A DNA stretch of 49,187 nt from Synechococcus sp. GreenBA-s (lineage in GTDB: Bacteria > Cyanobacteriota > Cyanobacteriia > PCC-6307 > Cyanobiaceae), in assembly GCF_024345855.1 (NCBI RefSeq), contig NZ_JAGQBX010000018.1, positions 1 through 49,187 of the forward strand, read 5' to 3'. Position 1 is the first letter of the stretch. Each line of letters opens with the position of its first letter. Made by a program: the position numbers and the translations under genes. The notes beneath the pieces are model-generated. The model searched no databases, was not told where the DNA came from, and saw only the letters and a list, made by a program, of their open reading frames with translations. Positions 30,894 through 32,729 of this stretch are shown one piece after another.

Positions 30894-31394
30894 TCAGAGG
30901 GCGTGGATCACATGCACGGCCACGCCCCAGATCAGCACCTCGCCGCACTGCTCCAGCTCCAGGGGCGGATAGGCGGGATGGGCGGCCTCCAGCCGCAGCC
31001 GGCCCTGGCAGCGCACCAGGCGCTTGAGGGTGAAGGCCCCGTCCAGCACGGCCACCACGACCCGGCCGGGGCGGGGATCGAGGCTGCGGTCCACCACCAG
31101 CAGGTCGCCGTGGTGGATGCCGGCGCCGGTCATCGAGTCGCCGCTCACCCGCAGGAAGAAGGTGCTGCTGGGATGGCGGATCAGCTGCTCGTTGAGGTCG
31201 ATGCCGACCTCGATGTAGTCGTCGGCGGGGCTGGGGAAGCCGGCGGCCACGCTCTCGCCGGCCAGCGGCAGCCGCAGCGGCAGGCACGGCGGGGTGCGCG
31301 CTGGCAGCAGGCCCGGTGGGAGTCGCTCCGGTGGGAGCCGGTCGGGCGGGCACGGGCCTGGCGGGAGCCGGTCTGGTGGCAGGACATCGCCCAT
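30894..31394 (-). CDS. umuD: UmuD, self-cleaving mutagenesis protein with Pro-rich N-terminus
   Basis: LexA-like serine peptidase whose RecA-stimulated self-cleavage activates DNA polymerase V. The 166-residue protein has the cleavage site Ala51-Gly52 in VAAGFPSPADDY, nucleophile Ser87 in RVSGDSMTGAGI and general base Lys124 in GAFTLKRL. All align well with E. coli UmuD. The segment before the cleavage site is about 25 residues longer than in E. coli and consists of repeated LPPDR/LPPGL-type units. ATG 31394 is 29 bases after a LexA-like box. umuC lies 3.5 kb downstream beyond three signalling genes. Without the partner or SOS box it might be called a LexA-like repressor, but it has no HTH. 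Confidence 0.94.
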   Translation of the reverse strand: MGDVLPPDRLPPGPCPPDRLPPERLPPGLLPARTPPCLPLRLPLAGESVAAGFPSPADDYIEVGIDLNEQLIRHPSSTFFLRVSGDSMTGAGIHHGDLLVVDRSLDPRPGRVVVAVLDGAFTLKRLVRCQGRLRLEAAHPAYPPLELEQCGEVLIWGVAVHVIHAL

Positions 31395-31463: not shown

Positions 31464-32039
31464 TCAGCGCAGGCCCGCCAGCTCGCCGCGGCCGTGGCGC
31501 TCGGCCAGGGCGTCGTAGCCGCCGATGAAGACGCCATCGATGAACACCTGGGGCACCGATCCCTCGGCCCGGGGCTCCACCAGCGCATGGGGGATGCCGA
31601 GGGTGCGCAGCATGCGCAGGGCCCGCGCCGAATAGGGGCAGCCCGGTTTCACGGCGATCGCCACCCGCGGTTGACCGGCGGCAGGGGCCTGGGCGGGGGG
31701 CTCCGCTGCCGGCTCCGCCAGCACCCCCACCAGCAGGTCCGCGCCCTTGAGCACCAGGCTGCCGGGCTCCAGGTGGCCGCCCCACACCTGGCAGTCGCCA
31801 TCGGAGAAGCTCAGGTGCAGGTGCACCCCCTCGGGTCCCACGGTGCCCTGCAGGCTGATGATCTCGAAGTCGCCCTGCAGCACGGTGGGGCCGCCGGGCC
31901 CCGGGCACTGGAACGCCACCTGCGACAGGTTGCCCACCACCCCGAGCACGAAGCCCGGCGCGTTCTGCGCCCGCCCCAGCTGCACCAGGCTGCGGTGCAG
32001 ATCGCTGCCGGGGCCGAGCTTCAGCGGCACGGGACGCAT
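31464..32039 (-). CDS. PPC/DUF296 domain fused to glutaredoxin
   Basis: Protein of 191 residues with two recognisable domains. Residues 1-105 are a PPC (DUF296) domain: MRPVPLKLGPGSDL, FVLGVVGNLSQVAFQ, GDFEIISLQGTVGPEGVHLHLSFSD and WGGHLEPGSLV. Residues 124-191 are glutaredoxin-like: active site PGCPYSARALRMLRTLGI, cis-Pro segment SVPQVFIDGVFIGG and a final helix. A Pro/Ala-rich linker joins them. Grx reduces disulfides or glutathione adducts, while PPC domains trimerise and occur in plant AT-hook proteins. The fusion suggests a redox-controlled PPC trimer. ATG 32039 is used. The gene ends 69 bases from umuD's start and has no link to it in function that I can see. Confidence 0.85.
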   Translation of the reverse strand: MRPVPLKLGPGSDLHRSLVQLGRAQNAPGFVLGVVGNLSQVAFQCPGPGGPTVLQGDFEIISLQGTVGPEGVHLHLSFSDGDCQVWGGHLEPGSLVLKGADLLVGVLAEPAAEPPAQAPAAGQPRVAIAVKPGCPYSARALRMLRTLGIPHALVEPRAEGSVPQVFIDGVFIGGYDALAERHGRGELAGLR

Positions 32040-32147: not shown

Positions 32148-32729
32148 ATGACCCAGCTGCAGCTCAGCACCCTCGCCGGCTGCGGCCTGGCCATCGGCGC
32201 CTATCCCCGCTTCCGCTACGACGCCCGCGGCGGCGGCGGCCTGGGCCAGCTGGCGGCGGCGATGGGCCCCGGCGGGGGCGGTGATGGTGGCGAGGGCCCA
32301 GGCCCCCGGGCCCTGCGCTTTGAGCCGTCAGGCCTGCGGATCCCCGACCTCGATGGCCGCACCACCCGCTGGCTGGGCCTGCCGCTGCCCCCGGGCCTGG
32401 CGATCGCCATCGCGCCGGAGCAGCTGGAGGGCCAGCTCGATCCCGCCAGCGGCCAGCTGGAGCTGCGCTTCCGGGCCCGCTTCCGCTTCCGGATCGGCGC
32501 GCTGCTGCAGGCCCCCGACCTGCTGATCGACGCCCAGCTCGGCACCGGCCCCGTGGCCGGCCGGCGCCATCGGGCCGAGGGCCAGCCCCTCGATGGCCAG
32601 GGTCAGGCGCTGCTGGTGGGGGTGGCCACGGTGCAGCCCAGCGGCGCGGCCTGGCTGGATCGCTTCCTGGGCCTGCCCGATGAGGCCCTGGCGATCCTGC
32701 GCTGCCGGCTCGGGCCCTGGGCCGGCTGA
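32148..32729 (+). CDS. Conserved-looking hypothetical protein
   Basis: Protein of 193 residues, soluble, with no signal peptide or membrane helix. It starts MTQLQLSTLAGCGLAIGAYPRF, has a Gly-rich insertion near residues 27-50, and then beta-rich sequence (GLPLPPGLAIAIAPEQLEGQL, GQLELRFRARFRFRIG, LLIDAQLGTGPVAG). I do not recognise the family. ATG 32148 was chosen because the long upstream extension of the frame lies opposite the PPC-glutaredoxin gene and looks non-coding. The gene converges on rlmH with nine bases between stops. Codon use matches its neighbours. Confidence 0.7.
   Translation: MTQLQLSTLAGCGLAIGAYPRFRYDARGGGGLGQLAAAMGPGGGGDGGEGPGPRALRFEPSGLRIPDLDGRTTRWLGLPLPPGLAIAIAPEQLEGQLDPASGQLELRFRARFRFRIGALLQAPDLLIDAQLGTGPVAGRRHRAEGQPLDGQGQALLVGVATVQPSGAAWLDRFLGLPDEALAILRCRLGPWAG

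Follow-up and report, generated by a model that had tools for sequence, protein, structure and literature searches.

Proteins with a PPC (DUF296) domain are present in bacteria, archaea and plants, and we know of no agreed function for the bacterial ones. The closest described system to the PPC–glutaredoxin fusion analysed here is DUF296-GRX, listed as a bacteria-specific architecture in a 2009 survey of glutaredoxin domains, which guessed at DNA binding as its role (PMC2679010). DUF296-GRX combines the same two domains in one bacterial protein, with a glutaredoxin of the CPYC class (PMC2679010), and very probably represents the same orthologous group as our fusion. Because of this listing the fusion architecture is already known, and novelty of the domain combination is not supported. 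The main text of the survey gives no species, cysteine pair, loss of helix 2 or neighbour gene for DUF296-GRX (PMC2679010). What is new here is the family-wide, phylum-restricted distribution of the fusion, its cysteine pair, the PPC subfamily to which it belongs, the loss of helix 2 and a linked orphan gene. A search of later literature that covered open-access papers and only a minority of subscription papers found nothing on the fusion after the 2009 survey, and no biochemistry or expression of the protein was found in the literature.

The window, i.e. the whole stretch of DNA that was analysed, comprises 49,187 nucleotides of Synechococcus sp. GreenBA-s (contig NZ_JAGQBX010000018.1). The fusion is encoded on the minus strand by an unbroken reading frame of 191 residues that runs from an ATG at 32039 to a stop at 31464, with the following parts.

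31464..32039, minus strand: PPC–glutaredoxin fusion gene, 191 aa plus stop, with 70 orthologues.
31722..32036, minus strand: PPC/PCC (DUF296) domain, residues 2–106, assigned by Pfam and fold match.
31671..31718, minus strand: linker, residues 108–123, variable and of low confidence (pLDDT ~57 at residues 111–120).
31467..31667, minus strand: glutaredoxin domain, residues 125–191, lacking helix 2, assigned by Pfam, AF2, fold search and alignment.
31629..31640, minus strand: active site Cys134-Pro-Tyr-Ser137, monothiol; C134 is present in 70/70 orthologues, and position 137 is Ser in 51 and Cys in 19.

The first-pass description of a PPC domain and a CPYS glutaredoxin within a single 191-residue protein was confirmed by Pfam, with both domains above cut-off (PCC, PF03479, residues 2–106, E 5e-18, 66 bits against a cut-off of 25; Glutaredoxin, PF00462, E 6e-8, 33.2 bits against 22.9). 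NCBIfam glutaredoxin models matched as well, but the missing helix 2 kept their scores under the equivalog cut-offs and split several of the matches into pieces. Sequence searches matched the solved PPC proteins 2hx0, 2nmu and 2p6y to the PPC half and E. coli Grx3 to the C-terminal half. In the AF2 model (mean pLDDT 89.4), residues 1–110 superimposed on 2p6y (Z 19.9, rmsd 1.3 over 109 residues) and residues 124–191 on E. coli Grx3 1fov (Z 9.6, rmsd 1.6); the pTM of 0.60 makes the relative placement of the two halves unreliable. Pfam, sequence and the AF2/2p6y match all place residues 1–105 in the PPC fold. The identical fused layout recurs in 70 distinct full-length orthologues, in which the linker varies from 11 to 34 residues, and a frameshift joining two neighbouring genes or a misassembly is therefore excluded as the source of the fusion. 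A scan for promoters and terminators found none. Elsewhere in the window, a UmuD-like S24 peptidase gene (30894–31394, minus strand; NF007621 above cut-off) encodes a long proline-rich N-terminus with repeated RLPP-like units, and the next minus-strand ORF beyond it resembles a gene for a GAF/HD-GYP protein rather than umuC.

When 386 Cyanobacteriota genomes were searched with a profile, the full-length fusion was present in 58 of 58 Cyanobiaceae, a family name taken from the labels of the GTDB-scan loci, and in 0 of the other 328, which carry a free PPC protein and/or a free glutaredoxin, or neither. A search of 60 genomes of relatives recovered it from 25 genomes in addition to the window's own, all of the same family; several genomes in this MAG-rich set are without it. 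A GTDB contig scan returned 12 loci, some from the same genomes as the 60-genome search, labelled Prochlorococcus, Cyanobium, Synechococcus, Vulcanococcus, Aphanothece and Microcystis elabens; the tree places those named Aphanothece and Microcystis elabens by NCBI within the Cyanobium group. Universal presence in the family was rejected, since two genomes of the MAG-rich set that are 97–99% complete (G007 and G032) lack the fusion, also when searched with the profile. Nearly all small cyanobacteria of marine and fresh waters nevertheless have it. It is kept in the smallest genomes of the family, those of Prochlorococcus size (1.6–1.7 Mb), which makes it likely to be important for abundant marine phototrophs. 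Absence outside Cyanobacteriota refers to plasmids, viral contigs and the GTDB contig scan, which reached close relatives only. Phage origin was discarded, with no relative in IMG/VR and only a weak thioredoxin-domain phrog match, as was plasmid carriage: of 21 matching plasmid records, none covers more than 80% of the query, and the listed matches are to the PPC half only. The window's genome encodes further complete glutaredoxins and two more PPC genes. One Prochlorococcus-sized genome holds, besides an intact copy elsewhere, a second PPC–glutaredoxin copy that is frameshifted and decaying (L113, G188:C1:211672-212100).

Residue conservation was counted over 70 distinct fusions with a lowest pairwise identity of 31%. 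Nineteen residues are invariant (D13, G36, C45, P46, E59, L63, G65, H73, H75, D80, C83, G88, H89, L90, L103, C134, P163, G173 and G174), of which the cysteines and the predicted metal ligands of the PPC half have these codons.

31905..31907, minus strand: Cys45, fusion-specific, in 70/70 fusions and 0/21 stand-alone cyanobacterial PPC proteins.
31815..31823, minus strand: His73 and His75, first two ligands of a predicted His-triad metal site, in 70/70 fusions and 21/21 stand-alone PPC proteins.
31791..31793, minus strand: Cys83, fusion-specific, in 70/70 fusions and 0/21 stand-alone PPC proteins.
31773..31775, minus strand: His89, third ligand of the predicted metal site, from residue conservation.

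The triad H73, H75 and H89 forms an HxH-x13-H pattern kept in 70/70 fusions. In LmiA, a PPC protein of E. coli O157, H85, H87 and H101 have been proposed as a zinc site (PMC7667037); the triad of the fusion corresponds to these residues, and the first spacing is identical (PMC7667037). Both the triad and the fold (Z 13.7–19.9) are shared with stand-alone PPC proteins (2p6y, 2hx0, 2nmu, 3htn, 2h6l, 2dt4 and LmiA). In contrast, the aligned stand-alone proteins are without C45 or C83: the 21 cyanobacterial ones have mostly Leu or Phe at the first position and always Gly at the second, and both cysteines are absent from six proteobacterial PPC proteins (0/6). C45 and C83, together with C134 of the glutaredoxin, are the only cysteines invariant among the 70 fusions. 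The fused PPC also has KGAD where the stand-alone proteins have TTAE, and it lacks their C-terminal tail F.R..D..TGY.EL, a trait of the stand-alone cyanobacterial subfamily and not of PF03479, having the linker and glutaredoxin instead. It therefore constitutes a distinct PPC subfamily.

In the glutaredoxin half, the retention of CPYS and the cis-Pro noted at first pass holds: all 70 sequences have the nucleophilic C134, P163 as the cis-Pro and G173/G174 as the GG motif. These residues and the fold are common to classical glutaredoxins (E. coli Grx3, 1fov/3grx; Synechocystis GrxA, 3qmx), whereas the monothiol CPYS site, the loss of helix 2 in the window's clade and the position behind a PPC domain are the fusion's own. 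The active site reads CPWS in 31, CPWC in 19, CPYS in seven, CPFS in seven and CAWS in six of the 70, so that 51 lack the second cysteine. This fits a GSH-dependent monothiol mechanism, or one in which a resolving cysteine would come from elsewhere in the protein.

The three cysteines found in every copy suggest a built-in redox switch. Since the only invariant cysteines are C134 and two that occur solely in fused PPC domains, the simplest reading is a glutaredoxin that serves cysteines of its own protein. We propose, as the most likely reading, though one to which we give somewhat less than an even chance, that the fusion is a PPC metalloprotein with a thiol switch reset by its tethered GSH-dependent glutaredoxin. 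The PPC half would provide a His-triad site, predicted to bind metal, and two oxidisable cysteines, C45 and C83. Strand register in the AF2 model puts these at two hairpin tips, well apart within a monomer; because the tips are not adjacent in one chain, a C45–C83 disulfide would probably link different subunits, or the oxidised form would consist of glutathione adducts. C134 would then attack the oxidised PPC cysteine and pass the oxidising equivalent to glutathione, and this transfer would tie PPC activity to the GSH redox state. Metal binding, the oligomeric state and the role of C45/C83 as substrate of their own glutaredoxin are what we infer. A narrower version, in which C45, C83 and C134 form a thiol relay within the oligomer that gates the His-triad site, is more doubtful; if true, the dominant ocean phototrophs would have a thiol-relay PPC protein close to their core gene set, and bacterial PPC function would gain a first chemical handle. 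The fusion clade probably has a single origin, in which the cysteines and the fusion could have been inherited together. Coming from one branch, their co-occurrence counts as a single event, and it is the invariance afterwards that carries the argument. A PPC domain wired to a thiol-redox enzyme and bearing two invariant extra cysteines amounts to a concrete, mutable hypothesis.

Beside the fusion lies a gene of an undescribed family.

32148..32729, plus strand: beta-barrel gene, 193 aa, divergent from the fusion; beta-barrel by AF2, family undescribed.

Its product had no sequence match in Pfam, NCBIfam, PHROG or PDB. The AF2 model is a beta-rich barrel (pLDDT 88) with no Foldseek match at E <0.001; barrel folds (OmpA, YceI, PsbO) were tied at Z 7–10, and no family was therefore assigned. 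The family occurs in 20 of 386 Cyanobacteriota genomes, every one in the window's family, and adjoins the fusion in 13 of these 20: upstream and co-directional in three, divergent in four including the window, where the two genes share a 108-bp intergenic region, and downstream and co-directional in six. In the remaining seven genomes, which are Prochlorococcus-like, it lies elsewhere. That the two genes stay adjacent in three different arrangements is suggestive of a functional link, although repeated local inversion would give the same picture. Since 38 of the 58 genomes with the fusion have no copy of the neighbour, it is no obligate partner. Cys12 is invariant and Cys186 nearly invariant in its family, which makes the barrel protein a possible thiol substrate, a lead only. 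Other genes also accompany the fusion: in marine picocyanobacteria, a small DUF6737 gene (L037, 5608–5856, and orthologues) abuts the fusion gene at its 3' end or overlaps it there, and a gene for a double GNAT acetyltransferase often comes next.

These neighbour data bear on an alternative in which the PPC half is an oligomer scaffold that joins three glutaredoxins so that they act on other proteins, such as the barrel protein, and C45/C83 are structural. Solved PPC proteins are trimers (PMC4209074), and it is from these relatives that the trimer formation named at first pass is known; the flexible linker of 11–34 residues would suit such an arrangement, and the link to a family with Cys12 and Cys186 in 13 of 20 genomes supplies a candidate client. 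A pure scaffold, however, has no need of an invariant His triad or of D80 and G88, and the client is missing from those 38 fusion-bearing genomes, so we hold this explanation to be unlikely, at roughly one chance in five.

The conserved histidines and cysteines could instead serve metal or Fe–S handling, with the CPYS/CPWS site and GSH holding a cluster or metal for delivery to the PPC His/Cys site. The structural neighbours of the glutaredoxin half include the holo plant proteins GrxC1 (2e7p) and GrxC5 (3rhc), known holders of [2Fe-2S], the His triad and two cysteines are co-conserved, and the structure of the PPC protein AF0104 (2h6l) is titled "metal-containing". Nevertheless, a whole clade does without helix 2, the active site varies among CPWS, CPWC, CPFS and CAWS, and it is not of the CGFS type of dedicated Fe–S glutaredoxins. 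This makes such a role improbable.

A redox-responsive DNA-binding regulator, the role guessed for DUF296-GRX in 2009, seems slightly less probable still. PPC proteins are named as DNA-binding, the PPC-domain protein LmiA of E. coli O157 acts as a regulator (PMC7667037), and in the window the fusion and its partner gene diverge from a shared region of 108 bp. Yet the divergent arrangement is not conserved, and in plant proteins the AT-hook is the DNA-binding unit, the PPC domain serving localisation and protein contacts (PMC4209074). The fused PPC is acidic (median net charge -5), and a loose pattern found an AT-hook-like motif in 1/70 fusions, leaving 69/70 without; the window protein has none, nor any AHL-type AT-hook. 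Its fold resembles that of acetolactate decarboxylase (6j92, Z 9.4; with 4bt2 and 1xv2, Z 8.6–9.4), an enzyme that is longer (~235 residues) and at most 21% identical, such that common activity is not implied. Because of the acidic domain, the missing AT-hooks and this likeness, DNA binding by the fusion is unlikely, and the output of the PPC half is probably enzyme-like or ligand-binding.

The last alternative concerns the shortened glutaredoxin of the window's clade. Between the second strand and the cis-Pro, ~13 residues corresponding to helix 2 of Grx3 are deleted in 23/70 fusions, the window protein among them, and kept in 47/70, so that this clade is without the full thioredoxin-like fold. 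On the maximum-likelihood tree the short form arises by one change (support 76/90); a single origin is thus favoured but not proved. Nei–Gojobori dN/dS in close pairs was 0.03–0.09 for the PPC half and 0.05–0.28 for the glutaredoxin half, the exception being the window against Vulcanococcus limneticus (0.39, few changes); short-form pairs gave 0.08–0.19. Each half was below 0.3 in nearly all close pairs, short-glutaredoxin pairs included. Both halves are under purifying selection, and the shortened domain is constrained, with no decay. That it is a degenerate, redox-dead docking module is the least probable of the explanations: the single-event deletion, CAWS in six of the shortened sequences and a glutaredoxin dN/dS usually above that of the PPC half speak for it, but none of the 70 fusions departs from C134, P163 or the GG motif, and the short-form dN/dS remains low. 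Loss of helix 2, with Ala replacing the active-site Pro in those six sequences, may leave weak activity, and a glutaredoxin of this kind raises the question of the minimum size at which the domain works.

The tethered thiol switch proposed above bears on the first-pass suggestion that the fusion hints at redox control in PPC proteins. The hint is strengthened for the fusions, all of which carry C45 and C83 while none of the aligned stand-alone PPC proteins does, but its extension to PPC proteins in general is unsupported because the fusion is limited to one family in the phylum and the extra cysteines are missing from the other PPC proteins examined. No support was found for the suggested link of the fusion to light.

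Other PPC genes were met in further contexts. In another cyanobacterial family, a 648-aa ORF (L029, 37–1980, and L100, 731–2674; genomes G039 and G374) reads as GlmU (N-acetylglucosamine-1-phosphate uridyltransferase), a name given from the sequence itself, followed by a PPC domain, which makes it a further bacterial PPC protein of several domains. On a plasmid of Ideonella dechloratans (L123, 782–1902), the end of a 2-dehydropantoate 2-reductase gene shares 4 bases with a stand-alone PPC gene, and the pair may form a metabolic operon. On a Paracoccus yeei plasmid (L128, 2920–3983), a cluster of ECF/ABC transporter genes is headed by a PPC gene that runs into the start of the gene for an ECF transporter S component.
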